Shown here: positions 10,891-59,762 of the stretch, piece by piece
Layout of the letters: every line of letters begins with the position of its first letter
Position numbering within the stretch: position 1 is the first letter of the stretch
Source: Actinopolyspora erythraea
GTDB taxonomy: Bacteria; Actinomycetota; Actinomycetes; Mycobacteriales; Pseudonocardiaceae
Length of the DNA stretch: 64,000 bases
Assembly: GCF_002263515.1 (NCBI RefSeq)
Contig: NZ_CP022752.1
Coordinates: 2,108,001-2,172,000 of the forward strand
Direction of reading: 5' to 3'
Position numbers and translations under genes: made by a program
The notes under the pieces: model-generated
Seen by the model: the letters and a program-made list of their open reading frames with translations, nothing else
Databases searched by the model: none
What the model was told of the DNA's origin: nothing

Positions 10891-11490
10891 ATGAACCACT
10901 CGAACCGGAGTTCGGAGGCGGCGCCCGTCGCACACCCCGCCACGACCCCGTCGCAGACCGTGGGGCCGTTCTTCGCGCTGCCCGGCGCCCTGCCGTGGCC
11001 CGACGGCCCCGAAGTCCTGCCGGCCGGCAGTTCCGGCGCGACGTTGCTGCGCGGCAGGCTGCTGGACGGGGCGGGAGACCCCGTACCCGACGGGTTGATC
11101 GAGATCTGGCAGGCCGACGAGCGGGGCCGATTCGCGCATCCGGACGACCCCAGGGGCACTTCCACTGACTTCCCCGGTTTCGGACGGTGCGCCACCGGCC
11201 CGGACGGCGAGTTCTGGTTCCGCACCGTCAAGCCCGGCCCGCTGCCCACCCCGGATGGGAGCGAGGAGGCGCCCCACGTCAACGTCACCGTACTGGCCCG
11301 CGGTTTGCTGGCCCGGGTCGTGACCCGGATCTACTTCCCCGACGAACCGACGGCCAACGCCGCCGACCCCGTGTTGTCCGCTGTCGATCCCGCCCGCCGG
11401 GATACCCTGGTCGCGACGGCAGAGGCCGACGGCTACCGCTTCGACATCCGGTTGCAGGGTGATGACGAGACCATCTTCTTCGCGGTCTGA
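10891..11490 (+). CDS. pcaG: Protocatechuate 3,4-dioxygenase alpha subunit
   Basis: Subunit of 199 aa with the opening TPSQTVGPFFALPGAL, typical of intradiol dioxygenase alpha chains. It shares the beta-sheet core (LIEIWQADERGRF, FGRCATGPDGEFWFRTVKPGP) but lacks the Fe ligand set of PcaH, as the family does. Of two candidate ATGs I chose 10891 because GGAG sits 6 nt upstream; ATG 10885 is too close to it. The 3' end overlaps the start of pcaB by about 30 bp. Confidence 0.92.
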   Translation: MNHSNRSSEAAPVAHPATTPSQTVGPFFALPGALPWPDGPEVLPAGSSGATLLRGRLLDGAGDPVPDGLIEIWQADERGRFAHPDDPRGTSTDFPGFGRCATGPDGEFWFRTVKPGPLPTPDGSEEAPHVNVTVLARGLLARVVTRIYFPDEPTANAADPVLSAVDPARRDTLVATAEADGYRFDIRLQGDDETIFFAV

Positions 11491-12850: not shown

Positions 12851-14009
12851 ACTGACGGGCCCGCCCAACGCCCCCGTGCTGGTGCTCTCCAACTCGTTGG
12901 GAACCGACCGGACCATGTGGGACCAGCAGCTGCCCGAACTGTCCTCCCGCTTTCGGGTGCTGCGCTACGACCAGCGCGGACACGGCAAGACCCCCGCCAC
13001 TCCAGGGCCCTACGAGCTCGAAACGCTCGGCCGGGACGTGCTCGACCTGCTCGATCACCTCGAGATCGTCCGGGTGCGCTTCGCCGGCGTTTCCCTCGGC
13101 GGTATGACAGGCATGTGGTTGGCCGCCAACGCCCCGGAACGAATCGAGCGGCTCGCCCTGCTGTGCACCTCGGCCGCGCTCGGCACGCCCGAGAACTGGC
13201 GCGAGCGAGCCGCGTTCGTGCGTGCCAACGGCACGGGGGCGATGACCGACTCGACCCTCGGACGCTGGTTCACGGCCGAACTGTCCTCCAGGCAGGACGT
13301 GGTGGCCAAGTACGGCGGAATGATGGCCGCCACCGACGACGAGGGGTACGCCGGTTGCTGCGAGGCCATCGCCGGGATGGCTTTGGAGGGGCGGCTCGGC
13401 GGGATCACCGCTCCCACCCTCGTGGTGGCGGGATATGATGATCCGGCGACCCCGCCCGAACACGCCGAACGCATCGCGGCCGGCATCCCGAACGCGCGGT
13501 TGGCGGTGCTGGAGCGCGCCGCACACCTGGCCAACGTCGAACAGGCCGAGCGGGTCAACCGCCTGCTCGTCGAGCACTTCGTATCGGAGGGCGAGCCCAT
13601 GTCCACCGCCAGCGGCGAAGCCGCCACCGCTCGCACCGGTACGGGTATGGCGGTGCGCAGACAGGTGCTGGGAGACGAGCACGTCGACAGGGCCATCGAG
13701 CGGCGGACGGAGTTCACCGAGCCGTTCCAGGACTTCATCACCCGGTACGCCTGGGGCGAGCTCTGGGCCTCGGAGGGCATGGACCGCCCGACCCGCAGCT
13801 GCGTGACGCTGGCGATCCTGGCCGCTACCGGGTGCCACGATGAGCTCGCCATGCACGTTCGCGCGGCACGTCGCAACGGGGTCGAAGCCTCGACCATCCG
13901 AGAGGTGTTGATGCACGTGGCCGTTTACGCCGGCGTGCCCAAAGCCAACAGCGCTTTCGCGTTGGCGGACCGGATTCTCGGCGAGGAAGCCGACGGGAAC
14001 GGTGCTTGA
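12834..14009 (+). CDS. pcaL: Fused 3-oxoadipate enol-lactonase / 4-carboxymuconolactone decarboxylase (PcaD-PcaC, PcaL type)
   Basis: Two enzymes in 391 aa. Residues 1-255 are an alpha/beta hydrolase (Ser87 in GVSLGG, Asp in AGYDDPATPP, His in RAAHLANVEQ) that opens 3-oxoadipate enol-lactone. Residues 270-385 are a carboxymuconolactone decarboxylase (CVTLAILAATGCHDELAMHV). The fusion covers two consecutive steps but in reverse order along the chain. Such PcaL proteins are known from Rhodococcus and Streptomyces. The GTG start at 12834 lies inside the pcaB end. It overlaps pcaR if that gene starts at 14002. Confidence 0.94.
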   Translation: MIPDYELTGPPNAPVLVLSNSLGTDRTMWDQQLPELSSRFRVLRYDQRGHGKTPATPGPYELETLGRDVLDLLDHLEIVRVRFAGVSLGGMTGMWLAANAPERIERLALLCTSAALGTPENWRERAAFVRANGTGAMTDSTLGRWFTAELSSRQDVVAKYGGMMAATDDEGYAGCCEAIAGMALEGRLGGITAPTLVVAGYDDPATPPEHAERIAAGIPNARLAVLERAAHLANVEQAERVNRLLVEHFVSEGEPMSTASGEAATARTGTGMAVRRQVLGDEHVDRAIERRTEFTEPFQDFITRYAWGELWASEGMDRPTRSCVTLAILAATGCHDELAMHVRAARRNGVEASTIREVLMHVAVYAGVPKANSAFALADRILGEEADGNGA

Positions 14010-14031
14010 GACCGATGCGGGGGTGGTGGCT

Positions 14032-14835
14032 ATGGACTCCGACGCCGATTCCGGGGTAGTGGGACCGGTTCAGTCCCTGACACGCGGACTCATGGTGATC
14101 CGCGCCTTCGACGAGACACGCCCCGAGATGACGCTCAGCGAAGTCGCTCGTGTCACCGGTCTCTCACGCGCGGCGACCCGTCGTTTCCTGCACACCCTCG
14201 TGAGACTGGGCTACGTCTGGACCGACGGCCGACTGTTCGCGCTGACGCCCCGGGTGCTGGAGCTGGGGTTCTCCTACCTGTCGAGCCTCTCGTTGCCCGA
14301 GATAGCGCAGCCGCACCTGGAACGGCTGGCAGCCCAGGTACACGAGTCGGTCTCGGTCTCGGTGCTCGACGGCGACGACATCGTCTACGTCGGGCGGGTG
14401 CCCACCTCGCGGATCATGACCGTGGCGATCAACATCGGTACCCGGTTCCCCGCCTACGCCACCTCGATGGGGCGGGTGCTGCTGGCGAACCTGGCGGAAC
14501 AGGAACTCACCGAGTACCTGCGACGGGTGCGTCCCGAACCGTTGGCGCCGCAGACGCTGACCAGCGTGGGATCGCTCCGGCGGGAGCTGGAGAACATCAG
14601 GGAGCAGGGTTGGGCCGTGGTCGACCAGGAGCTCGAGGCCGGGCTGCGTTCCCTCGCGGCGCCGATCCGCGACCGGACCGATCACGTCGTGGCCGCGGTC
14701 AACGTCTCCTCCCACGCCAGCAGGACCAGCCCGGAGGAAGCCCGTAACGAGCTGCTTCCACCGCTGTTGGAGACGGCCGCCAGGATCGAGGCGGACCTGC
14801 GGGTGGCACCTCACGCGGGCAGGACGGCGCGCTGA
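14032..14835 (+). CDS. pcaR: IclR-family regulator of the pca operon
   Basis: Regulator of about 267 aa. The N-terminal winged helix (VQSLTRGLMVIRAF, then LSEVARVTGLSRAATRRFLHTLVRLGYV) is followed by the IclR effector domain (YVGRVPTSRIMTV, FPAYATSMGRVLLA, GWAVVDQELEAGLRSLAAPI). This is the PcaR/PcaU/PobR pattern. It may respond to protocatechuate or beta-ketoadipate and act at 6904-6964 (inference). ATG 14032 has a G-rich site upstream. GTG 14002, overlapping the previous stop, is an alternative start. Confidence 0.88.
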   Translation: MDSDADSGVVGPVQSLTRGLMVIRAFDETRPEMTLSEVARVTGLSRAATRRFLHTLVRLGYVWTDGRLFALTPRVLELGFSYLSSLSLPEIAQPHLERLAAQVHESVSVSVLDGDDIVYVGRVPTSRIMTVAINIGTRFPAYATSMGRVLLANLAEQELTEYLRRVRPEPLAPQTLTSVGSLRRELENIREQGWAVVDQELEAGLRSLAAPIRDRTDHVVAAVNVSSHASRTSPEEARNELLPPLLETAARIEADLRVAPHAGRTAR

Positions 14836-23510: not shown

Positions 23511-23604
23511 TCGGACGAGGTCAGCAGGCCTGCGCCGTGGCTGCCGGCGATCTACGCTGACGACAATGAACGCCCTCATCAGCTGCGCCGAGTAGGAGGT
23601 GGTC

Positions 23605-25374
23605 ATGGCTGCGCTCCCGGATCGCGCCCGCCCCACTCGGCAGTCAGCGCGATCGTTCGAGGTTGTGCTGCCCGGGCAGCTGCCCGAGGTGGACGAGGTG
23701 CTGGCGCGGGCCCAGTCGGAGAACTTCACGGTGGCCGCCGGAGTGCTGCCCTACCGGATCCGGCAACACCTGATGGCGTTGTACGGCTTCGCCCGGCTCG
23801 TGGACTACGCGGGCGACGAGGCGTGCGGCCCGAGGGAGGGGTTGCTCGACCTGCTGGAGGCGGACCTGGGGCGCGCCTACGAAGGCACGCCGCGGCTTCC
23901 GCTGCTGCGTGCGTTCGCGCCGACCCTGCGCGCCTGCGGCATCCCCCGCGAGGTCCCCGCCCGTCTGATCGAAGCGAACCGGAGGGACCAGCACGTACGT
24001 CGGTATTCGACCTTCGGGGAACTGCTCGACTACTGCGTCTACGCGGCCAACCCGATCGGCGAGCTGGTGCTCTACATCTTCGGGCGCGCCGAGCCGGAAC
24101 TGATCCGACTGTCCGACCGCATCTGTTCCGCGTTGCAGGTCCTGGAACACTGCCAGGACATCGCAGAGGACTTTCGCCAGGACAGAGTGTACATGCCGGC
24201 CGAGGACCTGAGCGCGTTCGGATGCGACGAGTCCGACCTGGCGGCTCCCACCGCCTCCGCAGAGCTGCGCGGTCTGGTCTGGTTCGAAGTGGACCGCGCC
24301 GTGGAGATGCTGCGCGCCGGGCAACCGTTGATCGCCCGGCTCTCCGGCCTGGCCCGGATGGCGGTGGCCGGCTACGTGGCGGGCGGGATGGCCACGGCGC
24401 GCGCTTTCCGGCCCGCGGGCCACGACCCCCTGGCCGTGGACATCCGTCCCAACCGAAGGAGGATGCTCGCCGAGTGGGCACGGTTGTCGGTGGCGCCGAC
24501 CACCGGACTCGGCCACGACCGTGTTCGCGACGCCTACCGGTACTGCGAACGGATCACCCGGACCCAGGCACGCAACTTCTACTACGGAATACGGTTGCTG
24601 CCACCGGTCAAGCGCAGGGCCCTCTCTGCCGTGTACGCCTTCGCCCGCCGGGTGGATGACATCGGCGACGGTTCACTGTCGGACGAGCAGAAGCTGCGGC
24701 GTCTGCGGCAGGCGAGGCAGGACCTCGACGGGGTTCGGCCGGATGCCAAGGACCCCGTGCTGACGGCGTTGGCGGACGCGGGGCGACGGCTGCCCCTGCC
24801 GTTGCGGGCCTTCCACGAACTCGTCGACGGATGCGAGGCGGACGTGCGGGGGACCCGTTACGAGACCTTCGAACAGCTCACGCACTACTGCCGCTGTGTC
24901 GCCGGTTCGGTGGGCAGACTCTCGCTGGGGGTGTTCGGGCACGAGGTCACCGGCCCGGCCGCCCAGCGTGCCGACGCGCTCGGAGTGGCCCTGCAACTGA
25001 CCAACATCCTGCGCGACCTGCTGGAGGACCGACGGAACGGTCGGATCTACCTGCCGACGGAGGACCTGCGTGATTTCGGCGTCTCGCTCGAACTGGACTC
25101 ACGGGGGATGTTCAGCGACTCCCCACACGAGCTGGCCGAGCTGGTGCGTTTCCAGGTCCGGCGTATCGAGCGGTGGTACGCCGAGGGGCTGCGCCTGCTG
25201 CCCATGCTCGACCACCGCAGTCGAGCCTGCTGCGCGGCGATGGCCGGTATCTACCACGAACTGCTGCGACACATGTGGAACGAGCCCGACTCGGTGACGC
25301 GCGGCAGAATCAGCCTGCCCGCTTGGCAGAAGGCGAGCGTGGCTACGCGTTCACTGGCGGGGATGACGTCATGA
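23605..25374 (+). CDS. HpnC-HpnD fusion: presqualene diphosphate synthase joined to hydroxysqualene synthase
   Basis: One chain of 589 aa holds two squalene/phytoene-synthase domains. Domain 1 (about 20-290) is HpnC-like with D67-Y-A-G-D71 and QDIAEDFRQDRVYMP. Domain 2 (about 305-585) is HpnD-like with D351-D-I-G-D355 and RDLLEDRRNGRIYLP. HpnD makes presqualene diphosphate from two FPP, and HpnC turns it to hydroxysqualene. Both Asp-rich motifs are intact in both halves, so both look active. No stop or frameshift separates them. The genes are usually separate neighbours in Streptomyces and proteobacteria. AGGAGG precedes ATG 23605. The stop overlaps hpnE. Confidence 0.9.
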   Translation: MAALPDRARPTRQSARSFEVVLPGQLPEVDEVLARAQSENFTVAAGVLPYRIRQHLMALYGFARLVDYAGDEACGPREGLLDLLEADLGRAYEGTPRLPLLRAFAPTLRACGIPREVPARLIEANRRDQHVRRYSTFGELLDYCVYAANPIGELVLYIFGRAEPELIRLSDRICSALQVLEHCQDIAEDFRQDRVYMPAEDLSAFGCDESDLAAPTASAELRGLVWFEVDRAVEMLRAGQPLIARLSGLARMAVAGYVAGGMATARAFRPAGHDPLAVDIRPNRRRMLAEWARLSVAPTTGLGHDRVRDAYRYCERITRTQARNFYYGIRLLPPVKRRALSAVYAFARRVDDIGDGSLSDEQKLRRLRQARQDLDGVRPDAKDPVLTALADAGRRLPLPLRAFHELVDGCEADVRGTRYETFEQLTHYCRCVAGSVGRLSLGVFGHEVTGPAAQRADALGVALQLTNILRDLLEDRRNGRIYLPTEDLRDFGVSLELDSRGMFSDSPHELAELVRFQVRRIERWYAEGLRLLPMLDHRSRACCAAMAGIYHELLRHMWNEPDSVTRGRISLPAWQKASVATRSLAGMTS

Positions 25375-26726
25375 CCCCTGCTCGGGTAGTGATCATCGGT
25401 GGTGGCCTGGCCGGTGTATCCGCCGCGTTCGGCTGCCGTGACGCCGGTTTCGACGTCACCCTGCTGGAGTCGCGCTCCCGGCTGGGCGGAGCGACCTACT
25501 CGTTCCAGCGGGGCGGACTCACCGTCGACACCGGGCAGCACGTCTTCCTGCGCTGCTACACCGAGTACCTGGAGCTGTTGCGTCGGCTCGGCACGCTGGA
25601 CAGGGTGCGGATCCAGCCGAGATTCCGGGTGCCGGTGGTGACCCCCCGAGGAGCCACCTGGACACTGCGGCGCGGCACGCTTCCCGCTCCCGGACACCTG
25701 TTGCCCGCGCTGGCTGGACACCGTGCGCTGTCCCCACGGGAACGCTTCACCGCCGCACGAACGGCGTTGGCGCTGCGGGGGCTGGATCCGGACGATCCCG
25801 GACTGGACGGAACCGATTTCGAGAGCTGGCTGCGCTCCCGGGGGGAGTCGGACCGCTCCGTGACGAACCTGTGGGGGCTGTTCTGCGTCGCCGCCCTGAA
25901 CTCCCATCCTGGTGAGGCCTCGTTGGCCCAGGCGGTCAAGGTGTTCCGCACCGGCATGCTGGACAGCACCACCGGTGGCGACATCGGAGTGATCCGACGG
26001 CCGCTGAGCGAAGTGCACGGCGACCCCGCCGAGCGGAAACTGCGCGAGGCCGGAGCGGTGCCGCTGACACGCCACAAGGCGCTGGAGGTGTCCGGCATCT
26101 CGGGGAACTACCGCGTCCGTGTGAGCGGCGAGAGCGAGTACGAGCTGACCGCCGAAGCCGTCGTCCTGGCCGTGCCGCACCCGGCCGCTGCCAGGTTGCT
26201 GGGGCAGCGGCCCCTGCCGACCAGCGCCGATTTCACGGGGCTGTCACGCGCTCCCATCGTCAACGTGCACGCCCACTTCGACCGCGAGGTGACCGACCTG
26301 CCCATGGCCGCTGCGCTGCACTCGCCGGTGCAGTGGTTGTTCGACCGGACCGCAGCCTCCGACGTGGGGCACGGCCAGTACCTGGTGATCTCGTTGTCGG
26401 CGGCCCACGAACAGGTCAAGGCCCGCTCGGCGGCGTTGCGCGAGCGCTACCTGCCGGAGCTGCGGAGGCTGTTCCCCGCCGCGGAAGGGGCGCGACTGCT
26501 GGACTTCTTCATCACCAGAGAGCCCGCGGCCACGTTTCTGCCCGCACCGGGAGCACGTTCGCTGCGCCCGGCCGCGCGTACGAACGAGCGCGGGCTCGTG
26601 CTGGCCGGTGCTTGGACCGAAACCGGTTGGCCGGACACCCTCGAAGGGGCCGTACGGAGCGGAAACACCGCGGCCCGCGTGGTCAGCGGGACCGTCGATC
26701 GCCACGGCGATGTGGCGTGGAGGTGA
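25371..26726 (+). CDS. hpnE: Hydroxysqualene dehydroxylase
   Basis: FAD-dependent amine-oxidase-fold protein of 451 aa that reduces hydroxysqualene to squalene. The dinucleotide loop is VVIIGGGLAGVSAAFG, followed by LLESRSRLGGATYSF and DTGQHVFLRCY, and the C-terminal FAD motif is LVLAGAWTETGWPDTLEGAVRSG. ATG 25371 overlaps the stop of the HpnC-HpnD gene (ATGA), so the enzymes that pass presqualene diphosphate on are translationally coupled. Confidence 0.93.
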   Translation: MTPARVVIIGGGLAGVSAAFGCRDAGFDVTLLESRSRLGGATYSFQRGGLTVDTGQHVFLRCYTEYLELLRRLGTLDRVRIQPRFRVPVVTPRGATWTLRRGTLPAPGHLLPALAGHRALSPRERFTAARTALALRGLDPDDPGLDGTDFESWLRSRGESDRSVTNLWGLFCVAALNSHPGEASLAQAVKVFRTGMLDSTTGGDIGVIRRPLSEVHGDPAERKLREAGAVPLTRHKALEVSGISGNYRVRVSGESEYELTAEAVVLAVPHPAAARLLGQRPLPTSADFTGLSRAPIVNVHAHFDREVTDLPMAAALHSPVQWLFDRTAASDVGHGQYLVISLSAAHEQVKARSAALRERYLPELRRLFPAAEGARLLDFFITREPAATFLPAPGARSLRPAARTNERGLVLAGAWTETGWPDTLEGAVRSGNTAARVVSGTVDRHGDVAWR

Positions 26727-26729
26727 CGC

Positions 26730-27740
26730 ATGACAGTGACAATGCCGTCCGCGCTGTCCACCGCCCGGGAATCCATCGACTCACACCTGCGGCGCGCCCT
26801 CGGCAGGCTGGACCCCGACACCCGCAGGGTCAGCGAGTACCACTTCGGATGGGTCGACGCCGACGGGGCCGAGGACTCCCGGCCGGGCAAGGCGTTGCGC
26901 CCGGCGCTGGTGCTGCTCTCGGCCCGTGCGGTCAACGGCACCGAACACCGCGCCTCCCACGGAGCGGCCGCCGTCGAGCTGGTGCACAACTTCTCGCTGT
27001 TGCACGACGACCTGATGGACGGCGACATCTCCCGCAGGCACCGCCCGACCGCGTGGACCGTGTTCGGACGTTCCGCCGCGTTGCTGGCGGGCGACGCGTT
27101 GCTCGGTCTCGCCAACGACGTGATGCTGGAAACCGAGTCGCCGCGGGCGCTGTGGGCCGCCCGTGAGCTGTCGGGCACCGTTCGGGAACTCATCGCCGGA
27201 CAGGCCGCCGACCTGGACTTCGAGCAACGCACCGAGGTCGGGTTCGACGAGTGCCAGCGCATGGTCGCGGGCAAGACGGCCGCGTTGATCGCGTGCTCCT
27301 GCTCCGTCGGTGCCCTGTTGGCCGGGGCATCCGAACACACCGTGCTACGGCTGCGCGGTTTCGGCTTCGAGCTCGGAATGGCCTTCCAGCTCGTCGACGA
27401 CCTGCTCGGGATATGGGGAGATCCCGAGGAGACCGGGAAGCCGGTGCTTTCCGACCTGCGTTCCCGCAAGAAGTCGATGCCGGTGGTGCACGCGCTCAAC
27501 TCGGACGGCGACGCCGGCCGCCGGTTGCGCGAGCTCTACCGGCAACCCGAGCAGCTCACCGAGCACCAGGTGGAGCAGGCGGCCGAGCTGTTGCGTGTGG
27601 CCGGTTCGGATGAGTGGACCAGGAATGAGACGGAACGCAGGCTGGCCGCCGCGCACCGACAGCTCCGCGATGCGGACTGCCAGGGAACGACCGAAGGACT
27701 GACCGAACTCGCCGATTTCGTTCTCCGGAGGAATCAGTGA
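26730..27740 (+). CDS. Polyprenyl diphosphate synthase (probable FPP supply for squalene)
   Basis: Trans-isoprenyl diphosphate synthase of 336 aa. The first Asp-rich motif is LLHDDLMDGD and the second QLVDDLLGIWGD; GKALRPALVLL carries the conserved Lys/Arg. It starts 3 bp after hpnE, and its TGA overlaps the shc start. Actinobacterial hopanoid operons usually contain such a gene. FPP is the likely product because squalene is made from it, but chain length cannot be read with certainty, and GGPP for the crt genes is an alternative. Confidence 0.88.
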   Translation: MTVTMPSALSTARESIDSHLRRALGRLDPDTRRVSEYHFGWVDADGAEDSRPGKALRPALVLLSARAVNGTEHRASHGAAAVELVHNFSLLHDDLMDGDISRRHRPTAWTVFGRSAALLAGDALLGLANDVMLETESPRALWAARELSGTVRELIAGQAADLDFEQRTEVGFDECQRMVAGKTAALIACSCSVGALLAGASEHTVLRLRGFGFELGMAFQLVDDLLGIWGDPEETGKPVLSDLRSRKKSMPVVHALNSDGDAGRRLRELYRQPEQLTEHQVEQAAELLRVAGSDEWTRNETERRLAAAHRQLRDADCQGTTEGLTELADFVLRRNQ

Positions 27741-29758
27741 CCGGATCTCTGCGCCAGAACAGCGACGTCCGCGAAGCAGGCGAGACCGTCGAGGAGACGG
27801 TATCCCCGCCCGCACGGACCTCGGTCGGGGCCCTCGGTTCCGAACGGCACGACCCGACCTCGCGGGAACAGCGGCGTGGCTGGGAGGAGGCCCTCCGGGC
27901 GGGGCGCGACCACCTGTTGGGGCTGCAGCACGAACAGGGCTGGTGGAAGGGCGAACTGCAGACCAACGTGACCATGGACGCCGAGGACCTGATGCTGCGG
28001 CAGTTCCTCGGAATCCGTGAGGAGAAGGAGACCGCCGACGCGGCGCGCTGGATCCGGTCCCAGCAGCGCGAGGACGGGACCTGGGCCGCTTTTCACGGAG
28101 GGCCTGGCGAGCTGTCGGCCACCGTGGAAGCCTACGTGGCGCTCAAACTGGCCGGTGACGGTGTGGACGAGGAGCACATGGCCGCCGCGCGGCGCTGGAT
28201 CCTGCGGTGCGGCGGTATCGAGCGCACCCGCGTGTTCACCCGGATGTGGCTGGCCATGTTCGGCCAGTGGCCCTGGGACGAGCTGCCCGCCATGCCGCCG
28301 GAAATCGTCATGCTGCCGAGCTGGGTGCCGCTGAGCCTGGCCGACTGGGGCTGCTGGGCCCGCCAGACCATCGTTCCGCTGACCGTGGTCAACACGTTGC
28401 GCCCCGTGCGTGAGCTGGGGGTCGGCACCGCGGAACTGCGCACCGGCGGACCGGTGGGACGGGTGCGCGAGAACGCCGGGACCTCGCGGTGGGAGACGGT
28501 GTTCAACGCGCTGGACCGGGCGTTGCACGTCTACCAGCGCCACCCGTTGCGTCCGCTGCGGCGGCAGGCCATGCGCCGGGCGGCCGAGTGGATAGTGGCA
28601 CGGCAGGAGGCGGACGGTTCGTGGGGTGGTATCCAACCGCCCTGGGTGTACTCCCTGATCGCGCTGCACCTACTCGGGTACCAGCTCGACCACCCGGTGA
28701 TGCGAACCGGCATCCAGGGGCTGGAGGGGTTCCTGATCAGACAGGAAACAGAACGGGGCACGCTGCGCAGGTTGGAGGCCTGCCAGTCGCCGGTCTGGGA
28801 CACCGTGCTGACCATCCAGGCCCTGCACGACGCGGGGGTGCCCGACGACGACCCCTCGATCCGGGACGCCGTCGAGTTCGTCCGCGCCGAGGAGATAACG
28901 GTTCGCGGTGACTGGGCCGTACGGCGCCCCGAACTCCCGGCCGGGGGCGGCTGGGCCTTCGAGTTCGACAACGACGGCTACCCCGACATCGACGACACCG
29001 CCGAAGTGCTGCTCGCCTTCACGCGCACCGGCTACGTCGAGCAGGACCGCATCTCCGCCGCCGTGGACAGGGGCAGGCGTTGGTTGCGCGGTATGCAGTC
29101 CCGCGGTGGGGGATGGGGAGCCTTCGACGCCGACAACACCCGCTGGTTGGTGAACAAGCTGCCGTTCTGCGACTTTGGGGCGGTCATCGATCCGCCCTCG
29201 GCCGACGTGACAGCGCACGTGGTCGAGGCGCTGGCCCACCTCGGCGACACCGACGACCGGGTCGTGCGGGACGGTGTGCGCTGGCTGTTCGAGCAGCAGG
29301 AGAACGACGGTTCCTGGTACGGGCGCTGGGGAGCCAACCACGTCTACGGCACAGGTGCCGTGGTTCCCGCTCTGGTCAGCGCCGGGATTCCGGCTGAGCA
29401 CTGCGCGCTCAGGCAAGCGGTGCGCTGGTTGGAGCGGCACCAGAACCCCGACGGCGGTTGGGGTGAGGACCTGCGGTCCTACACCGATTCCTCGTGGATC
29501 GGGCGAGGTGAGTCCACCCCCTCGCAAACCGCGTGGGCCCTGCTGGCGCTGTTGGCGGTGGGACGTCACGACACCGACCCGGTGCGGCGGGGGGTCGCTT
29601 TCCTGGCCGAGACCCAGCGGGAGGACGGCAGCTGGGAGGAGCCGCAGTTCACCGGCACGGGATTCCCGGGTGACTTCTACATCAACTACCACCTCTACCG
29701 ACAGCTGTTCCCCGTGACCGCCCTCGGGCGGTACCGGCAAGCCGTAACCGTCGAATAG
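27737..29758 (+). CDS. shc: Squalene-hopene cyclase
   Basis: Terpene cyclase of 673 aa, the usual SHC length, turning squalene to hopene and hopanol at the membrane. The protonating motif is D417-I-D-D-T421. QW repeats are visible (QQREDGTWAAF, ARQEADGSWGGI, QSRGGGWGAFD, QQENDGSWYGRW, HQNPDGGWGED, TQREDGSWEEPQF). The GTG start overlaps the stop of the prenyl synthase (GTGA). Confidence 0.97.
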   Translation: MTGSLRQNSDVREAGETVEETVSPPARTSVGALGSERHDPTSREQRRGWEEALRAGRDHLLGLQHEQGWWKGELQTNVTMDAEDLMLRQFLGIREEKETADAARWIRSQQREDGTWAAFHGGPGELSATVEAYVALKLAGDGVDEEHMAAARRWILRCGGIERTRVFTRMWLAMFGQWPWDELPAMPPEIVMLPSWVPLSLADWGCWARQTIVPLTVVNTLRPVRELGVGTAELRTGGPVGRVRENAGTSRWETVFNALDRALHVYQRHPLRPLRRQAMRRAAEWIVARQEADGSWGGIQPPWVYSLIALHLLGYQLDHPVMRTGIQGLEGFLIRQETERGTLRRLEACQSPVWDTVLTIQALHDAGVPDDDPSIRDAVEFVRAEEITVRGDWAVRRPELPAGGGWAFEFDNDGYPDIDDTAEVLLAFTRTGYVEQDRISAAVDRGRRWLRGMQSRGGGWGAFDADNTRWLVNKLPFCDFGAVIDPPSADVTAHVVEALAHLGDTDDRVVRDGVRWLFEQQENDGSWYGRWGANHVYGTGAVVPALVSAGIPAEHCALRQAVRWLERHQNPDGGWGEDLRSYTDSSWIGRGESTPSQTAWALLALLAVGRHDTDPVRRGVAFLAETQREDGSWEEPQFTGTGFPGDFYINYHLYRQLFPVTALGRYRQAVTVE

Positions 29759-29766
29759 GTGCCCCC

Positions 29767-30393
29767 ATGACATCGGATCTGCTCGTGTGCACACCGCTGC
29801 GAGTGGAGGCCCGCGCGTTGCGTCACCTGGGCGCCAACCGGGTGCTGCGGACCGGTTACGGCCGGCGGCACAGTGTCCGCTCGGCGGCCGAGCTCGCCGG
29901 GCGCGAGTTCGGTGCCCTCGCCGTGGCGGGACTGGCCGGTGGGCTGGATCCGCGCCTGCGCAGCGGTGACGTGGTCGTGGGAACCGAGGTCGCGGAGTGG
30001 GGGGGCGCCTGCCGGTGTCGCTCCCGCCGTCCCGAAGCGCTGGCCACGGAGCTGCGCGGGCTCGGACTGCGCGTGTGGCTCGGCCCGGTGCTGACCAGTC
30101 GGCGTCTGGTGCTCGGCGCCGCGCGTGCCGAGGCGGCACGCGGCGGCCTGGTCGTGGACATGGAATCGGAGGTGTTGGCGGCAGCGGCGTCCGGCCGCCC
30201 CTCGGTGGTCGTGCGCGTCGTGCTCGACACCGCTCGACAACCGCTGCTGGGGCCCGGCTCGCCGGTCCGGCTGTCGGGGGCGCTGCGGCGGTTACGTGCC
30301 ACCGGACTCCCGCTGCTCCGCTGGGCGGAGGCCGTCGCGGGAGCCGGTTCGCTGGATGCTGTCCGATCTCGCCGAAGCAGAGAGGTTCCGTAA
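29767..30393 (+). CDS. hpnG: HpnG-like adenosylhopane nucleosidase/phosphorylase
   Basis: Nucleoside-phosphorylase-fold protein of 208 aa. The N-terminal LLVCTPLRVEARALR, AVAGLAGGLDPRLRSGDVVVGTEV and VVDMESEVLAAAASGRPSVVVRVVLDT are the base- and ribose-binding elements. HpnG removes adenine from adenosylhopane to give ribosylhopane or its phosphate. It lies between shc and hpnH and its TAA shares one base with the hpnH ATG. Confidence 0.9.
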   Translation: MTSDLLVCTPLRVEARALRHLGANRVLRTGYGRRHSVRSAAELAGREFGALAVAGLAGGLDPRLRSGDVVVGTEVAEWGGACRCRSRRPEALATELRGLGLRVWLGPVLTSRRLVLGAARAEAARGGLVVDMESEVLAAAASGRPSVVVRVVLDTARQPLLGPGSPVRLSGALRRLRATGLPLLRWAEAVAGAGSLDAVRSRRSREVP

Positions 30394-31394
30394 TGGGTAT
30401 CCCGGTCCGTCAAGCGGCCAAGGTAGGTGCCTACCTGGTCAAACAAAAGATTCTACGACGCAAGAAGTTCGCGTTGACTCTCGAACTGGAGCCGTTGTTC
30501 GCCTGCAATCTCGCTTGCGCCGGCTGCGGCAAGATCCAGCACCCGGCCAACGTGCTCAAACAGCGGATGCCGGTGGAACAGGCGCTGTCCGCGGTCGAGG
30601 AGTGCGGTGCCCCCGTGGTCTCCATCGCCGGTGGCGAGCCACTGATGCACCCCGAGATAGAGGTGCTCGTCAGCGAACTCGTCAAGCGCAGGAAGTTCGT
30701 GTACCTGTGCACCAACGCGTTGCTCATGCCACGCAAGATCGACAAGATCGAGCCGTCCCCCTACTTCTCGTGGGCGGTGCACATCGACGGACTGGAGGAA
30801 CGCCACGACGCCTCGGTGAGCAAGCAGGGAGTGTTCGCCCAGGCCGTGGACAACATCAAGGACGCCCAGCGCCGCGGCTTCCGGGTGACGACGAACAGCA
30901 CGTTCTTCAGCACCGACACTCCCAAGACGGTCATCGACGTGCTGGACTACCTCAACGACGAGCTCAACGTCGACCAGATGATGCTCTCCCCGGCCTACGC
31001 CTACGACAAGGCGCCCGACCAGGACCACTTCCTGGGGGTGGAGGAGACCAGGGAGCTGTTCAAGAAGGCCTTCGCCGACGGCAGGCGCAAGAAGTGGCGG
31101 TTGAACCACTCCCCGCTGTTCCTGGACTTCCTGGAGGGCAAGCGTGACTTCGCCTGCACGGCCTGGGCCATCCCCTCGTACTCGTTGTACGGCTGGCAAC
31201 GCCCCTGCTACCTCATGGCCGACGGCTACGCGCAGTCCTACCGCGAGCTGATCGAGGAGACGGACTGGGAGTCCTACGGGAGGGGAAGAGATTCCCGCTG
31301 CGCCAATTGCATGGCACACTGCGGCTACGAACCCACCGCGGTGATGGCGACGATGGGGTCGCTGCGGGAATCGCTGCGGGCGATGCGCGGCTGA
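30393..31394 (+). CDS. hpnH: Radical-SAM adenosylhopane synthase
   Basis: Enzyme of 333 aa adding the 5'-deoxyadenosyl radical to diploptene, the first step to C35 hopanoids. The 4Fe-4S Cys are C38, C42 and C45 (CNLACAGC). SIAGGEPLMHPEI binds SAM. The C-terminal region carries extra Cys (CANCMAHCGYEPT), as usual in HpnH. It has full family length. It is the last gene of the operon; no gene for later side-chain steps follows directly. Confidence 0.95.
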   Translation: MGIPVRQAAKVGAYLVKQKILRRKKFALTLELEPLFACNLACAGCGKIQHPANVLKQRMPVEQALSAVEECGAPVVSIAGGEPLMHPEIEVLVSELVKRRKFVYLCTNALLMPRKIDKIEPSPYFSWAVHIDGLEERHDASVSKQGVFAQAVDNIKDAQRRGFRVTTNSTFFSTDTPKTVIDVLDYLNDELNVDQMMLSPAYAYDKAPDQDHFLGVEETRELFKKAFADGRRKKWRLNHSPLFLDFLEGKRDFACTAWAIPSYSLYGWQRPCYLMADGYAQSYRELIEETDWESYGRGRDSRCANCMAHCGYEPTAVMATMGSLRESLRAMRG

Positions 31395-31574
31395 GCCGCC
31401 GGCGGGATGTGTCGGTGGCCACTGGTCGCGGTGAAGCGTTGTGGTCGCGGGTTACACTGGGTCACAGCGCCAACTCCTGTCGCGCGACTCGCCGAACTCT
31501 CAACAGCGCGATGCAGCCGTCCACGGCGCCGGTGCGGGGTTCCCCGATCCCGCCCCGCGCCGCGTGAGGTCACC

Positions 31575-32282
31575 ATGCACGATCCGACGACCGTCCAGCT
31601 GGACGGGCTCCGGACGCACCTCCTGCACGCGGGCAAGAAGCTACTGGAAACCACTCTTGCGCCGCTCGGGTTGTTCTACCTGCTACTCCAGCTCACCGAT
31701 CTGACGGGTGGGCTGTTCGCGGCGCTCGGATGGGCGGTCGCGGCGGTGGTGTGCCGACTGGTGCTCCGTGCGCCGGTGCCGGCGGTGCTGCTGTTGACCA
31801 CCTCGCTGCTGGTCGTGCGCACCGTGGTCGGGGTCGTCTCGCAGAGCGCCTTCCTGTACTTCCTGCAGCCGAGCCTGCAGAACTTCCTCATAGCCGGGGT
31901 GCTGTTGGCCACGCTGCCGTTCGAGCGGACCTTCCTCGCACGGTTGGCCGACGACTTCTGCGTCTTCCCGCCCGCGCTGATGGGACACGCCGTGCTGCGA
32001 CGCTTCTTCCGTCGTGTCTCGTTGCTGTGGGCCGCCGTGTTCATCGCGAACGGGGCGGCGGCGCTCTGGATGCTCGCCGAACACACAGTGGGGCAGTTCC
32101 TGCTGGTGAGCACCATCGGTTCCTACGGACTCGTCGCCGCAGCGGCGCTGGTCTCGCTGCTGTGGTTCCGCAGGGAACTGCGTGGTCACGGGATCCGGCT
32201 TCGGATCGGCGACGGAGCGTCGAGGCTGCTGCCCAACGTGCCGCGCCCGGCATGGATCCCTCCCGGGGCCGGGGTTCGCTGA
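31575..32282 (+). CDS. Multi-pass membrane protein, VC0807-like
   Basis: Protein of 235 aa with about six hydrophobic helices (residues 25-45, 50-70, 73-92, 108-125, 150-175, 180-200). The motif near FPPALMGHAVLRRFFRRVSLLWA and the spacing resemble the VC0807/septation-protein-like family, a weak assignment from memory. ATG 31575 has GTGAGGT before it. It is separated from hpnH by 180 bp, so it may have its own promoter. Function unknown. Confidence 0.65.
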   Translation: MHDPTTVQLDGLRTHLLHAGKKLLETTLAPLGLFYLLLQLTDLTGGLFAALGWAVAAVVCRLVLRAPVPAVLLLTTSLLVVRTVVGVVSQSAFLYFLQPSLQNFLIAGVLLATLPFERTFLARLADDFCVFPPALMGHAVLRRFFRRVSLLWAAVFIANGAAALWMLAEHTVGQFLLVSTIGSYGLVAAAALVSLLWFRRELRGHGIRLRIGDGASRLLPNVPRPAWIPPGAGVR

Positions 32283-32368: not shown

Positions 32369-33121
32369 TCATCCCCTTCCCCCGAACAGACGGTTCAGCC
32401 GCTCGAAAGTGGCGGGCATGGCCCCCTGGATCCGCGCCGCCGCCCCCAGCCAACGCGGCACGAAGCTCTCCCGGCCGCCCCGTTCGATCGCGCGCACCGT
32501 CCGTGAGGCCACCAGCTCGGCCGAGACCTGGCGTGGGAACCCGCGCCCGTAGGGTCTGCCGCGTCGCCGGAAGAACGGAGTGCGCACCGCTCCGGGAAGT
32601 ACCGTGGTGATCTCGACCCCGGAGTCGCCCGCCTCTTGCCGGAGTCCCGCCGCGAAGGCGCGCAGTCCCGCCTTGGTGGCCGAGTAGACCGCCTCGTCCC
32701 CCACACCGACCGCGGCTATCGACGAGACGAAGACCACGTGTCCACCGCCCCGCTGCCGCATCGCGGGCAGCATCAGGCGGGTCAACTCCAGCGGGGCCGC
32801 CAGGTTCACGGTGAGCAACCGGTGGACGTCCTCGCCCGACATGGTGGTGAACCGCCCCGCCCAGCCGACGCCGGCGTTGTTGATCAGGACGTCGGCATCC
32901 GTGGCCCGCTCGGCCACCCGGGTGAGTTCCCCCGGAGTGGTCAGGTCGGCGGTCACCGCCCGAGCTCCGGTCTCCTCCGCCACGTGCCGCAACGCCCGCT
33001 CGTGACGCCCGACCAGGATCAGTTCGCAACCGCGCCCGGCCAGCGCCCTCGCGGTGGCCGCGCCGATCCCGGAGGACCCCCCCGTCAGCAGTACCGTTCG
33101 CCCGTCGAGACCGGACCGCAT
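32369..33121 (-). CDS. Short-chain dehydrogenase/reductase
   Basis: Classical SDR of 250 aa. The cofactor loop is TGGSSGIGAATA, followed by NNAGVGWAG, catalytic Ser in VFVSSIAAVG, and Y-S-A-T-K in EAVYSATKAG. The Arg after the second strand (VGRH) suggests NADP. The C-terminal VRAIERGGRESFVPRWL with a hydrophobic end resembles SDRs acting on lipids or steroids. ATG 33121 lies 4 bp after the upstream gene; an in-frame start at 33151 would overlap it. It is the third gene of an operon with a lipid-type fusion enzyme and a transporter. Confidence 0.85.
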   Translation of the reverse strand: MRSGLDGRTVLLTGGSSGIGAATARALAGRGCELILVGRHERALRHVAEETGARAVTADLTTPGELTRVAERATDADVLINNAGVGWAGRFTTMSGEDVHRLLTVNLAAPLELTRLMLPAMRQRGGGHVVFVSSIAAVGVGDEAVYSATKAGLRAFAAGLRQEAGDSGVEITTVLPGAVRTPFFRRRGRPYGRGFPRQVSAELVASRTVRAIERGGRESFVPRWLGAAARIQGAMPATFERLNRLFGGRG

Positions 33122-33125: not shown

Positions 33126-34049
33126 TCAACCCCATGTCGCGGTTCCATCACTGCCGATGGACTCGTTGTCCTCTATTTCCCGTCGCAACGCCTCACCACG
33201 GTGGGTGAGCAACACGATTCCGCCGACGATCGCCACGGCGGCCACGGCCTGGCCGCCCAGCACGGCCGGGGTGGCGACCACCCTCTCGCCGAACCAGCCG
33301 ATCCCGATCGCCACGCCGACCAGCGGGTCCACGGTGGTGATCACCGCGAGGGCGGGCGAGATCAGTTTGCCCTGCTGGAACGCGTTCTGGCTCAGCAGGA
33401 AACCGCACGGACCGACGAGGCACACCGCGTAGAGCACCCAGTGCTGGAAGGGTTCGACGAAGCCACCGGAACGGAACTGGCTCGCCACCACCTTCATCAA
33501 CGCGGCCGTCACCCCGTAGATCACACCGGTGGCCAGCGCCAGCGCGATCACCCGGATCTCGCCGGGGAAGCGCGAGGCGGCCAGCAGGCACACCACGGTG
33601 ATCACGCCCAGCACGACCGCCAGCGGGATCGCCTGTGGCTCGATCGTCTCGTCCCCGCCCGCGGGGCGTGCCAGCAGCAGGAACGCCGAGAGACCGCTCA
33701 TGCAGCCGAGCGCGCCCAGTACGACGATCCGGTCGAGCTTGCGGTGGGCCAGCCAGGCAGCGTGCAGGGCGGCGAACAGCACACTGGTCACCAACAGCGG
33801 TTGGACCAACATCAACGGACCGTAGGCCAGTGCCACGACCTGCAGAGACAGTCCCACGATCACCGTGCCGACGCTGGCCAGCCAGATCGGCTTACGCACC
33901 AGCTCGAACAGCAGGCGGGGGTTGAGGGTGCGGATGTTGGGGACCTGCTTGGTGGCACGCTGCTGCACCGCGCTGGCCATGCCGAAACTCGCCGCTCCCA
34001 CCAGCGCCGCCGGAACGGCCACCGTGAGCCAGGCTCCCGTTCCCGTCAT
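33126..34049 (-). CDS. DMT-superfamily membrane protein
   Basis: Protein of 307 aa with about nine to ten hydrophobic helices and no soluble domain. The first helix is AWLTVAVPAALVGAASFGMASAVQQRA. The layout resembles EamA or NIPA-like DMT transporters. ATG 34049 overlaps the stop of the upstream fusion gene (ATGA). It could export or flip the lipid made by that enzyme (inference from context only). Confidence 0.75.
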   Translation of the reverse strand: MTGTGAWLTVAVPAALVGAASFGMASAVQQRATKQVPNIRTLNPRLLFELVRKPIWLASVGTVIVGLSLQVVALAYGPLMLVQPLLVTSVLFAALHAAWLAHRKLDRIVVLGALGCMSGLSAFLLLARPAGGDETIEPQAIPLAVVLGVITVVCLLAASRFPGEIRVIALALATGVIYGVTAALMKVVASQFRSGGFVEPFQHWVLYAVCLVGPCGFLLSQNAFQQGKLISPALAVITTVDPLVGVAIGIGWFGERVVATPAVLGGQAVAAVAIVGGIVLLTHRGEALRREIEDNESIGSDGTATWG

Positions 34050-36538
34050 CGCCGCGCTTCTTCCCGCGCGGCTTCCGACGGCCCGGCGGTGCCGGGCCGA
34101 TCCAGCAGCTCCCCGAAGCACTCCCGCAGCCGCTCGGCCACGCGGGAGGGCAGCCACTCCAGGCGAGCGTCAGCGGTGATCCCGATCCCGACCGTCTCGC
34201 CCCAGTTGATCAGACCGATCGCCGTTCCCACCCCGGGGGCCAGCGGAAGGATCGGCAGCACTTCCGCCACCAGCGCACCCCATACCCGGGGTGGACGCCG
34301 CGATCCCGGCATCGCCGAGACGAGGGCGTTGAAGAAGCGGCGTTGGTAGATCGACCGGACGACCAGCCGGTGCAGCGGAGCGGGAAGCGCTCCCAACGCG
34401 GCCATGGCTATACCAGCGGCGACCGGTTGCCCGTCGTGCTGGCCCGCCAGCAGTCGTTCCGAGACCTCCCGCAAGCGCTGTTCCGTGCTCATCGGGCCCA
34501 CGGGAAGGTCCACCGAGACCGCGACGGTGTGGTTGCCGAACATCCCCGCGCCCGAGGAGTCCCGCGGTGAACGAGTGGTGCGCGGCACCATCACCCGCAC
34601 GTACTGCCCCGGTGTCGTGCCGGTCCGTTCCGCGAGCGTGCGGTGCAGCGCCTCCGCCGTCAGGCCGATCAGAAACACGCTGGTGGGAACCCCGCGAGCG
34701 CGCGCCCGCGCGCGTACTTCGCTCGCGGGCAACTCGGCGGTGCCGAACACACGGGCCGAGGTGCTGTCAACGTCGAGCGGACTCCGGGGAGCCGGTCCGG
34801 CGGCGGCGAGACCGCGCAGACCGCGGGCGACGGTCAGGGCCTCGTGCGTCCGGGACCGCACGAGGTAGCGCAGGCGGGCCACCGACACCGGTCGCCTCGC
34901 CGCCCGGCCGTGCGGGCGCGGTGCCCGCTCCACGTCCTCGGGGTCGTCGCGCAGCAGCCGCACGAGCGTGTTCGTGACAGCGATGCCGTCACCCAGGGCG
35001 TGGTGCAGCTTCGCGAGGATCAGCGTCTCGTCGCCGCTGCGCAGCACCATCAGTTGCCAGGGAGGTCGGTCGGTTGGTACCGCCGCGGTGAAGAACTCGC
35101 GGATGATCCCCTCGCGGTCGCCGGTGGTGCGGTGTTCGAGGTGGTCCCACGGCTCGATCACGCGGGCCGTGTGCCAGCGGGGGCCACGCGAGCCCCGTTC
35201 GACCAGCACGCTGTGCAACATCGGCAACGCGCGGGCGCGCCGTTCGATCAGCCCGGCCAGGTAGTCGGCCCACTGGCCGGCGGTTCGCTCCTCCGGCCCG
35301 TCCCGCAGCCGCAGTACGGCACCGGTCTGCTGCGGAACCACGGGATCCGCGGCATGTGCGAAGAACCGGTCGGAGTGGCGCAACCGGCGTGCCCCCCGGT
35401 GTCGGGGAAGCTCGGCGAGCGCGGCCACCTGCTCGGTGAAATCGCCCGCCGTGGCTCGTTCCAGAACGCGCTGCTCGTCCCGGTGCAACCGTTCGGGGTT
35501 CGTGGCGAGTTCGCGCAGCGTCACCGCCAGCGATTCCGAGGTCGGGCACAGCTCGGCCAGACCGGCTCGCGCCATGAGTTCGGCGTTGGCACGCCCGTGA
35601 CCGGCGATCGGTTCGAACATGATCATCGTTCGGCCGCACGCCATCGTCTCCAGCGCGGTGGCTCCACCCGCGTTCGAGACAACCGCGTCCGCCGCCGCCG
35701 TCAGACCGGGCATGTCCTCGACCCAGCCCAGCGGCAGCAGCTTCCCCGCCGCCTCCTCCCGTTCCGACAGTCGGCCACGCAGCTCGTCGTTGCGACCGCA
35801 GGCCACGATCACCCGGTCCACCGCCGGTTCGGCCAGCGCCGTGTCCACCGCGCGTTCGACCGAGCCGAACGAGAGCGAGCCGCACGCGATCAGGACCTGA
35901 AAGCCCTCGGCGGCCATCCCGAGTTCCAGCCTGGCCCCGCGCCGCTCCCTGGGGTGGAACGCGCTGGTTACCGGAGGCACGCTCACGGCACCCGTGGCGT
36001 CGGGTTGGGCGCGGTACAGCGCTCGCAGGCTGGCCTCGCTCATCACGTAGTGCAGGTCGATCTCGGGGTACACCCAGAATGGGTGGGGGCAGAAGTCCGA
36101 GACGAACGCCGCGACCGGTGCCCGCACCTCGCCACGGCGGCGCATTCGGTCCAGCCCGGCGGTGGCCATCGGGTATGTCGAGATCACCAGGTCGGGTTGC
36201 CAACGCCGGATCCGGCGGCGCAGCAACGGGCCCACCCAGGCGCCCACGAAGCGACGGGAGGCGGTGGCGAACCACCGCCACCGCCACAGCGCGTCGTAGA
36301 ACAGGTCGTACAACCAGGGGGTGGACTCGACGTTGCGGACGTAGATCCACCGGAACAGCGGTCCGACACCGGGTCCCATCACCCGCAGCGTGTCCAGGCG
36401 GGCGCTCTCGCATCCGGGCCAGAGCCGCCGTGCGGCCTCCTCGACGGCCCGGGCCGTCGCATTGTGCCCCTCGCCGATATCGGCACTGACCAGCAGTATT
36501 CGTTCCGGGGGGCGACCATTCGGCTCGTGGGAGGTCAC
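34046..36538 (-). CDS. Fusion of an MGDG-synthase-type glycosyltransferase and a WS/DGAT acyltransferase
   Basis: Chain of 830 aa with two lipid enzymes. Residues 10-375 are a GT-B transferase of the monogalactosyl-diacylglycerol-synthase/MurG-like type (ILLVSADIGEGHNATARAV at the start, CGSLSFGSVERAV, SNAGGATALETMACG for the donor). Residues 400-820 are a wax-ester synthase/acyl-CoA:diacylglycerol acyltransferase with the catalytic HHALGDG at 512-518 and the C-terminal GLINWGETVGIGI. GTG 36538 is preceded by GGAAGGA; an in-frame GTG at 36655 would add 39 residues without a site. Product inferred: a glycolipid or acylated glycolipid. Confidence 0.82.
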   Translation of the reverse strand: MTSHEPNGRPPERILLVSADIGEGHNATARAVEEAARRLWPGCESARLDTLRVMGPGVGPLFRWIYVRNVESTPWLYDLFYDALWRWRWFATASRRFVGAWVGPLLRRRIRRWQPDLVISTYPMATAGLDRMRRRGEVRAPVAAFVSDFCPHPFWVYPEIDLHYVMSEASLRALYRAQPDATGAVSVPPVTSAFHPRERRGARLELGMAAEGFQVLIACGSLSFGSVERAVDTALAEPAVDRVIVACGRNDELRGRLSEREEAAGKLLPLGWVEDMPGLTAAADAVVSNAGGATALETMACGRTMIMFEPIAGHGRANAELMARAGLAELCPTSESLAVTLRELATNPERLHRDEQRVLERATAGDFTEQVAALAELPRHRGARRLRHSDRFFAHAADPVVPQQTGAVLRLRDGPEERTAGQWADYLAGLIERRARALPMLHSVLVERGSRGPRWHTARVIEPWDHLEHRTTGDREGIIREFFTAAVPTDRPPWQLMVLRSGDETLILAKLHHALGDGIAVTNTLVRLLRDDPEDVERAPRPHGRAARRPVSVARLRYLVRSRTHEALTVARGLRGLAAAGPAPRSPLDVDSTSARVFGTAELPASEVRARARARGVPTSVFLIGLTAEALHRTLAERTGTTPGQYVRVMVPRTTRSPRDSSGAGMFGNHTVAVSVDLPVGPMSTEQRLREVSERLLAGQHDGQPVAAGIAMAALGALPAPLHRLVVRSIYQRRFFNALVSAMPGSRRPPRVWGALVAEVLPILPLAPGVGTAIGLINWGETVGIGITADARLEWLPSRVAERLRECFGELLDRPGTAGPSEAAREEARR

Positions 36539-36710
36539 CTGCCAAAGTCCTTCCGCAGCTCTCGGTGTCTCGTCGAAGGTTAACGGCGGTGCCGCGCCTC
36601 GGCTCGCCGGAAGCACGTGCCGCCCTACCGGCAAGACCGTATCGTCCTCGGACACGTTTGGCGATCACGTGAGTGCGTTGAGTCGCGACAGTGGCCGGTG
36701 CCGCCGGGCG

Positions 36711-57680: not shown

Positions 57681-58277
57681 TCACCCGGCCTCCCCGGCCG
57701 TCGCCGGGCTCTCCTCCGTGATCAGGGAACTTCCCCTGGTCTCGGTGGCGAACAGGATCGCGACCGAGGTGATCACCGCACCCAGCGCCACGTAGACCGC
57801 GATGGGCACCCAGCTGTCGAAGGCCACCAGCAGTCCGGTAGCGACAGTGGGGGCGAGACCGCCCGCGACCACCGAAGCCAGCTGGTATCCGATCGAGGCT
57901 CCCGAGTACCGCACGCGGGTTCCGAACAGCTCGGACATGAAGGCGGCCTGTGGGCCGTACATCGCGGCGTGCAGCACCAGACCCACCGTCACGCCGAGCA
58001 CTATCAGGAGGAACGAACCCGTTCCCAGCAGTGGGAAGAACGCGAAGATCCAGAGACCGGTTCCCACGGCACCGATCAGGTAGACGCCCCTGCGCCCGAA
58101 CCGGTCGGACAACGCCCCCCAGACGGGGATGACAACGAAGTGCACCACGGACGCGATCAGAACGGCGTTGAGAGCGACGGACTCGGACATCCCCAGCTGC
58201 TCGATGATGTAGGTCAGTACGAACGCCGTGATCACGTAGTAGCACACGTTTTCGTGTATTAACGCTATGACCAGCAT
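57681..58277 (-). pseudogene. 3' half of an MHS-type MFS transporter gene, cut by prophage insertion
   Basis: The frame has 198 codons, covering about six helices (TM7-12) of a metabolite:H+ symporter-type MFS protein whose family has about 430-450 aa. ALSDRFGRRGVYLIGAVG is the loop between TM8 and TM9, and FGTRVRYSGASIGYQLASVVAGGLAPTVA is an MHS signature. The N-terminal half is missing; the frame begins at the prophage border, where codons are AT-richer. The 5' part should lie beyond the right prophage end. Confidence 0.85.
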
Positions 58278-59429: not shown

Positions 59430-59436
59430 GACTACG

Positions 59437-59488: not shown

Positions 59489-59494
59489 AAGAAT

Positions 59495-59756: not shown

Positions 59757-59762
59757 CACCGT

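Follow-up and report, generated by a model that had tools for sequence, protein, structure and literature searches.

The window analysed here is a 64,000-nt stretch of the Actinopolyspora erythraea genome (contig NZ_CP022752.1, positions 2,108,001 to 2,172,000; the genome is a single contig of 5.24 Mb), and its minus strand carries a gene whose product joins a GT-B glycosyltransferase (GT) to a WS/DGAT-type acyltransferase (AT). We confirmed that the two are joined in one real protein, found its gene beside a cluster of hopanoid genes, and propose that it tailors hopanoids. Hopanoids are the sterol-like lipids of bacteria, and bacteriohopanetetrol (BHT) belongs to this lipid class, which is used as a biomarker. 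The initial annotation, made from the sequence alone, had described an MGDG-synthase-like GT and an acyltransferase with the motif HHALGDG in a single 830-aa protein; the open reading frame (ORF), the Pfam matches and the homologues all agree with it, and its coordinates are correct, the minus strand being a detail it had not given.

The fusion ORF is open as far as 36655 (869 aa). The start at 36538 (830 aa) looks better, because a 92%-identical homologue, P0001, is 830 aa long and because the alignment of 111 of 120 homologues starts 35-49 residues into the query. Pfam matches were MGDG_synth (residues 64-208, 50.2 bits, curated cut-off 25) and Glyco_tran_28_C (254-396, 36.9 bits, cut-off 22), followed by WS_DGAT_cat (426-656, 35.5 bits, gathering cut-off 23.6) and WS_DGAT_C (707-850, 46.1 bits, gathering cut-off 20.7). 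Structure prediction gave folds for both halves, and with MGDG_synth and Glyco_tran_28_C above their gathering scores and a GT-B fold, the first half belongs to the GT28 MGDG-synthase-like enzymes, of the MGDG-synthase/MurG type. All four Pfam families occur together in 118 of 120 homologues among the matches listed (120 of 327 at E ≤ 0.001, with 7990 candidates scored), the exceptions, P0022 and P0072, being without a precomputed PF04101. The closest named homologues come from Actinopolyspora species (92-93% identity in A. xinjiangensis), and the database names of many homologues mention only one half or the other. A frame error or chimera joining two genes is ruled out by the uninterrupted ORF and by the same fusion in these homologues and in the family genomes described below.

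The catalytic motifs are well conserved. In the alignment, H551 and H552 of HHxxxDG are kept in 120 of 121 sequences and D556 and G557 in all 121, and most GT motif positions are retained in 118-121 of 121. Since both halves have intact motifs, an acylated glycolipid is the natural class of product, as had been supposed at the outset, whereas the diacylglycerol acceptor supposed with it is doubtful. Going by its scores, the AT half is a divergent relative of the WS/DGAT enzymes, not a typical member: it reaches 151.4 bits against the NCBIfam TIGR02946 cut-off of 309.95, and a second WS/DGAT elsewhere in the genome (G000:C1:964592, 258 bits) is far more canonical. It also differs from the WS/DGAT enzymes of solved structure (6chj, 7nxg) in sitting behind a GT and in having an operon and a distribution that point to hopanoids. 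The GT half, for its part, scores 116 bits against the equivalog cut-off of 500 for PRK13609, the processive diacylglycerol glucosyltransferase of the GT28 group that includes MGD1, and differs from MGD1 and UgtP in its linkage to HpnH and in a GHG motif at the position where those two presumably have GQE.

The operon and the hopanoid cluster

The fusion is followed on the same strand by a DMT/NIPA-like transporter (DMT) and a classical short-chain dehydrogenase/reductase (SDR). The likely ATG of the DMT gene overlaps the stop codon of the fusion (ATGA), and the likely ATG of the SDR gene lies 4 nt past the DMT stop; because of this overlap and this spacing, the three genes appear by their layout to form one operon with the fusion first (Table 1). 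The operon converges on a plus-strand cluster in which HpnC, HpnD, HpnE, squalene-hopene cyclase (SHC) and HpnH are contiguous and each above its curated cut-off (window 23599-31394), which makes this a C35 hopanoid cluster. The phosphorylase gene of the cluster is named HpnG-like here because the cut-off of the HpnG model TIGR03468 (187.1) was reached in none of the 27 genomes searched. Two further ORFs considered as neighbour markers, P28670 (over SHC) and P30453 (over HpnH), were discarded as opposite-strand readings of the true genes.

Table 1. Genes of the fusion operon and of the adjoining hopanoid cluster, in window coordinates.
Feature	Position	Strand	Basis and remarks
GT-AT fusion	34046..36538	minus	likely 830 aa; ORF open to 36655 (34046-36655, 869 codons/869 aa), 0 internal stops
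GT half	35411..36520	minus	MGDG_synth + Glyco_tran_28_C; GT-B fold
AT half	34091..35395	minus	WS_DGAT_cat + WS_DGAT_C; HHALGDG = residues 551-557 (869-aa reading)
DMT/NIPA-like membrane transporter, proposed lipid flippase	33126..34049	minus	NF038012 98 bits (cut-off 50)
Classical SDR reductase, proposed ribosylhopane reductase	32369..33121	minus	adh_short 150 bits; ORF open to 33151
VC0807-family membrane protein	31407..32282	plus	NF041646 92 bits (cut-off 65); recurs in relatives
HpnH, adenosylhopane synthase	30393..31394 (from the matched domain to the stop codon; the ORF is open from 29997)	plus	TIGR03470 521 bits (cut-off 225)
HpnG-like nucleoside phosphorylase	29767..30393	plus	TIGR03468 74.6 bits (below cut-off 187.1); between SHC and HpnH
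Squalene-hopene cyclase (SHC)	27737..29758	plus	TIGR01507 751 bits (cut-off 431)
Polyprenyl diphosphate synthase of hopanoid cluster	26730..27740	plus	Pfam polyprenyl_synt 201 bits
HpnE hydroxysqualene dehydroxylase	25173..26726	plus	TIGR03467 385.5 bits (cut-off 283)
HpnC-HpnD fusion, squalene synthase pair, single ORF	23599..25374	plus	TIGR03464 425 bits, TIGR03465 410 bits, both above cut-off

Distribution of the fusion, its separated halves and the reductase

Among the coded families, we take f1 to be Pseudonocardiaceae (referred to below as the family), f33 to be Streptomyces-like and f32 Frankia-like. Of 34 loci examined around the fusion, 32 contained hopanoid genes (31 of 33 genomes, since L055 is a repeat of L006), and the other two loci, L083 and L084, come from fragmented genomes. 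Two of the 32 are from outside the family, L050 (same order) and L053 (same class), the latter keeping the operon order beside HpnH. When 200 family genomes were drawn and four candidates per genome scored, the fusion was found in 64, of which 62 gave continuous matches over both halves (13 with one stop noted within the matched stretch) and two gave two-piece matches in one frame. Counted by the AT, the set comes to 65 genomes, including the split matches G013 and G575 as well as G530 (AT only, at a contig end), and compared with HpnH (82 genomes) both were present in 63, the fusion only in two, HpnH only in 19 and neither in 116.

The two genes also switch together within genera: in g191, genomes G486, G508 and G583 have both the fusion and HpnH and genomes G455, G527 and G558 have neither, and in g16 the same holds for G577 and G024, respectively. 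The presence of squalene-hopene cyclase by itself does not entail the fusion. Seven genomes have the cyclase without HpnH, and the fusion is absent from G487, G505, G509, G444 (weak), and G020 and G600 (both incomplete), the seventh being the fragmented G530, in which the AT is present. The linkage to C35 hopanoid genes is physical as well as phylogenetic.

Across the class, 394 genomes were drawn and two candidates per genome were scored for the GT, so the GT counts are lower bounds; both GT and HpnH were found in 58 genomes, GT only in 10, HpnH only in 34 and neither in 292 (G079, whose only match was to the AT, was left out of the GT set). In f31 (L095-L097) and f27 (L098) the hopanoid cluster has a standalone GT and a DMT at one of its ends and an SDR at or near the opposite one. 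SDR, GT and DMT thus look like recurrent hopanoid-cluster genes of the class, and the AT fusion looks like an elaboration in Pseudonocardiaceae and a few others.

The halves of the fusion also occur apart. Seven g177 genomes have a nearly full-length GT, no AT and an adjoining DMT (L075-L077, L113-L116). In g175, an AT with a GT stub, followed by the SDR, lies beside HpnH in seven of the eight HpnH-positive genomes (L081, L082, L107-L112), the eighth having a partial AT where its contig ends. None of the nine g175 genomes gave a GT match (E ≤ 1e-6), and two g175 ATs read HHALADG in place of HHALGDG. Three g177 GTs nest within the fusion clade of the GT tree (99/96), as two g175 ATs do within that of the AT tree (100/99). 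Because the truncated forms fall inside the fusion clades, the trees suggest that the fusion is the older state. Compared by eye, the main groups of the two trees coincide except for L053. These two natural half-losses offer ready comparisons.

Several further arrangements were noted in these genera. In G554 (g177, L117) GT and DMT are both broken, as if lost together, and the g177 genomes G539 and G581 gave no GT match. A PAP2-WS/DGAT fusion (L090:12325-14385) lies beside the hopanoid cluster of one g177 genome, next to an SDR, another DMT and a VC0807-family protein. Like the GT-AT fusion, it joins a WS/DGAT to a lipid enzyme near a hopanoid cluster, an SDR and a DMT, but it is canonical (PF03007, 127 bits), only ~28% identical to the fusion AT and without a GT. 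The AT-like ORF beside HpnCD in g177 was considered as a displaced AT and rejected, since it belongs to another clade and is a PAP2-WS/DGAT, as Pfam showed for L090. AT-like ORFs occupy similar positions in L091-L093, the PAP2 domain being established for L090 only. In L052, L065, L066, L072, L073 and L074 (g5, g191), a second GT of the same family, divergently transcribed, stands directly beside the fusion and could add a second sugar.

According to passages of PMC12583986, HpnH adds an adenosyl group and HpnG then releases adenine, leaving ribosylhopane; which enzyme converts this to BHT was not established as of this 2025 paper. The operon SDR tracks HpnH in both distribution and position, and we propose it as a candidate ribosylhopane reductase. 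SDR and HpnH were each found in 82 of the 200 family genomes, with both in 81, SDR only in one, HpnH only in one and neither in 117; the exceptions, G530 (cyclase present) and G574, are many-contig drafts. The cut used (E ≤ 1e-45, 13 candidates scored per genome) was chosen after seeing a gap in the scores from 164 to 146.5 bits; at E ≤ 1e-33 there are matches in 94 of 200 genomes, and the 12 that fall below the stricter cut are without HpnH. Where SDR and HpnH share a contig, 75 of 76 pairs lie within 25 kb of each other, at a median of ~1 kb. Of the 83 family genomes that have the SDR or HpnH, 81 have both, and the SDR is a testable candidate for the missing BHT step.

For other families, we compared 51 of the 91 further HpnH-positive genomes of the class draw with 29 hand-picked HpnH-negative controls, using E ≤ 1e-42, again chosen after seeing the scores. 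The SDR was found in 39 of 51 and in 2 of 29, respectively, and both positive controls carry the GT; at E ≤ 1e-33 the figures are 41 of 51 and 7 of 29. By group, the HpnH-positive genomes with the SDR at E ≤ 1e-42 were 19 of 21 in mixed families, 15 of 15 in f32 and 5 of 15 in f33. SDR and HpnH starts are at most 16 kb apart in 24 of the 39 positives, whereas three f33 genomes have the SDR 1.2-1.6 kb away from the GT, with HpnH distant or on a different contig. HpnA was not among the best 25 of the 224 NCBIfam families matching the SDR. An aminotransferase downstream of HpnH in L105, past IspG-like and Dxs-like ORFs, would by its place and class be a Streptomyces-type HpnO candidate; at E ≤ 1e-70 it was found in two of the 200 family genomes, both times as a partial match (eight candidates scored per genome). 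This near-absence fits a BHT route rather than an aminotriol route.

A proposed route to acylated hopanoid glycosides

We favour, with moderate confidence, the reading that the fusion is a two-step hopanoid-tailoring enzyme making an acylated BHT glycoside, with the SDR and the DMT protein as partners; we infer the substrates throughout, the identity of the sugar, the site of acylation, the sequence of the steps and the role of the transporter. HpnH and the HpnG-like enzyme would produce ribosylhopane, which the operon SDR would reduce to BHT. The GT half would then glycosylate a hydroxyl of BHT with an NDP-sugar as donor. Using the histidine of HHxxxDG, the AT half would acylate either the sugar or the polyol with a fatty acyl group taken from acyl-CoA, and the DMT protein would flip the completed acylated BHT glycoside into the outer leaflet. 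Because g175 keeps the AT and the SDR without the GT, the AT may also accept BHT itself. More tentatively, the operon may complete a hitherto undescribed actinobacterial branch of the hopanoid pathway, with the SDR as the missing ribosylhopane reductase and the GT-AT leading to acylated BHT glycosides, a class of composite hopanoids that the DMT protein would export. Pseudonocardiaceae hopanoids bearing both a sugar and a fatty acid, to which the fusion points, are a target for lipid screens.

Among the known systems closest to the proposed one are two that join a sugar to BHT. No match between the fusion and HpnI appeared among the four NCBIfam families listed at E ≤ 0.01 (the NCBIfam library presumably contains an HpnI model), and no search of the genome for HpnI, HpnJ or HpnK was made. 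The HpnI-HpnK-HpnJ route to BHT glucosamine and cyclitol ether, as given in passages of PMC12583986, likewise puts a sugar on BHT to build a composite bacteriohopanepolyol, but the fusion differs by carrying an acyltransferase. N-acylglucosaminyl BHT in Alicyclobacillus, as well as acylated side chains, is on record in parts of PMC8537080, and like the proposed product this lipid combines BHT, a sugar and a fatty acyl group; Alicyclobacillus, however, belongs to the Firmicutes, and the acyl link in Actinopolyspora would more likely be an ester. In our searches of open-access literature (subscription journals lie mostly outside it) we found no description of a GT-AT pairing, of acylated or glycosylated actinobacterial hopanoids or of a ribosylhopane-reducing SDR, and for the terms searched the fusion goes unmentioned in the bacterial WS/DGAT passages of PMC10351704 and PMC2667194. 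The initial statement that no enzyme with this pairing had been described thus stands as regards characterised enzymes in that literature, but the pairing itself is not rare, given its presence in 64 of 200 family genomes. The enzyme families are known; what appears to be new, at least to us, is the fusion with its proposed hopanoid role and the reductase candidate.

An unlikely alternative is an acylated glycosyl-diacylglycerol, in which the GT would glycosylate diacylglycerol as MGD1 and UgtP do, the AT would acylate the sugar, and the hopanoid genes would be neighbours because both lipids serve one and the same state of the membrane. By profile, diacylglycerol glycosyltransferases (9wde, 4wyi) are the closest relatives of the GT with solved structures, and because they use diacylglycerol, to go by their names, it is a possible acceptor here. 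Against this, the fusion co-occurs with HpnH, including in the within-genus switches, and is absent from six of the seven genomes with the cyclase but not HpnH, and the HpnH-tracking SDR would have no evident step in such a synthesis. It is similarly doubtful that the halves act separately, fused for co-expression or scaffolding, with the GT working on a hopanoid or diacylglycerol, the AT on BHT or diacylglycerol, and two products held in balance. The GT without an AT in g177, the AT without a working GT in g175 and the PAP2-WS/DGAT fusion at a g177 hopanoid locus would all fit; the retention of the fusion in 64 of 200 family genomes, the match between the main groups of the GT and AT trees, judged by eye and leaving L053 aside, and the canonical WS/DGAT elsewhere in the genome speak against it. 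The balance between storage lipid and glycolipid put forward in the initial annotation is likewise doubtful, as the gene lies beside and co-occurs with C35-hopanoid genes, the SDR tracks HpnH and a canonical WS/DGAT is encoded separately; as the sole explanation, a storage-lipid enzyme was rejected in view of that separate WS/DGAT and the HpnH-following distribution. Overall, that annotation is partly supported and had overlooked the hopanoid setting. It is highly improbable that the GT alone is active and that the AT half binds lipid as a non-catalytic or regulatory domain. The AT does fall below the NCBIfam WS/DGAT cut-off (151 bits, with 310 needed), and over its length it shows less conservation than the GT, but it retains HHxxxDG in 120-121 of 121 sequences and is the half kept in g175.

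Besides the solved GT relatives, a number of observations weigh against the hopanoid-tailoring reading itself. The AT occurs without HpnH in G498 (210 contigs, SHC also lacking) and G530 (450 contigs), and 19 HpnH-positive family genomes are without the fusion, seven of them having an AT with a GT stub and one a partial AT at the end of a contig. Of the 68 genomes with GT homologues in the class draw, 10 lack HpnH, as do three g191 genomes with a GT homologue, and the sole match to the GT half found in the A. erythraea genome is the fusion itself. In g177, GT and DMT lie away from the hopanoid cluster, the 9-18 kb read there containing no hopanoid marker, and the hopanoid locus has the SDR (47-49% identical) with a different DMT; in G503 of this genus the cluster carries a PAP2-WS/DGAT fusion, fitting neutral-lipid chemistry. 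In the Streptomyces-like f33, only 5 of the 15 HpnH-positive genomes carry the SDR. Since passages of a review (PMC10301674) name BHT as one of the compounds determined with S. coelicolor, BHT may be made by a different route in that family. The distribution counts are also not phylogenetically independent, and the Fisher values calculated for them leave kinship out of account and are not to be taken as probabilities; the candidates scored per genome were limited (two for the GT in the class, four for the fusion in the family, 13 for the SDR and eight for HpnO).

Other features of the window

Within the hopanoid cluster, the polyprenyl synthase reaches 419 bits against the model for the polyprenyl transferase cargo of family 2 encapsulins (cut-off 450). 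Relatives of the cluster (L051:3080-4591, L079:8204-9679) have the HpnG-like phosphorylase in a fusion with IspH (LytB), and in many relatives the VC0807-family protein is again encoded between HpnH and the SDR. Elsewhere, window positions 7023-14835 hold protocatechuate/beta-ketoadipate pathway genes with a PcaR-type regulator, and over positions 58001-64000 the G+C content falls from ~70% to 49-53%, suggesting recent acquisition.

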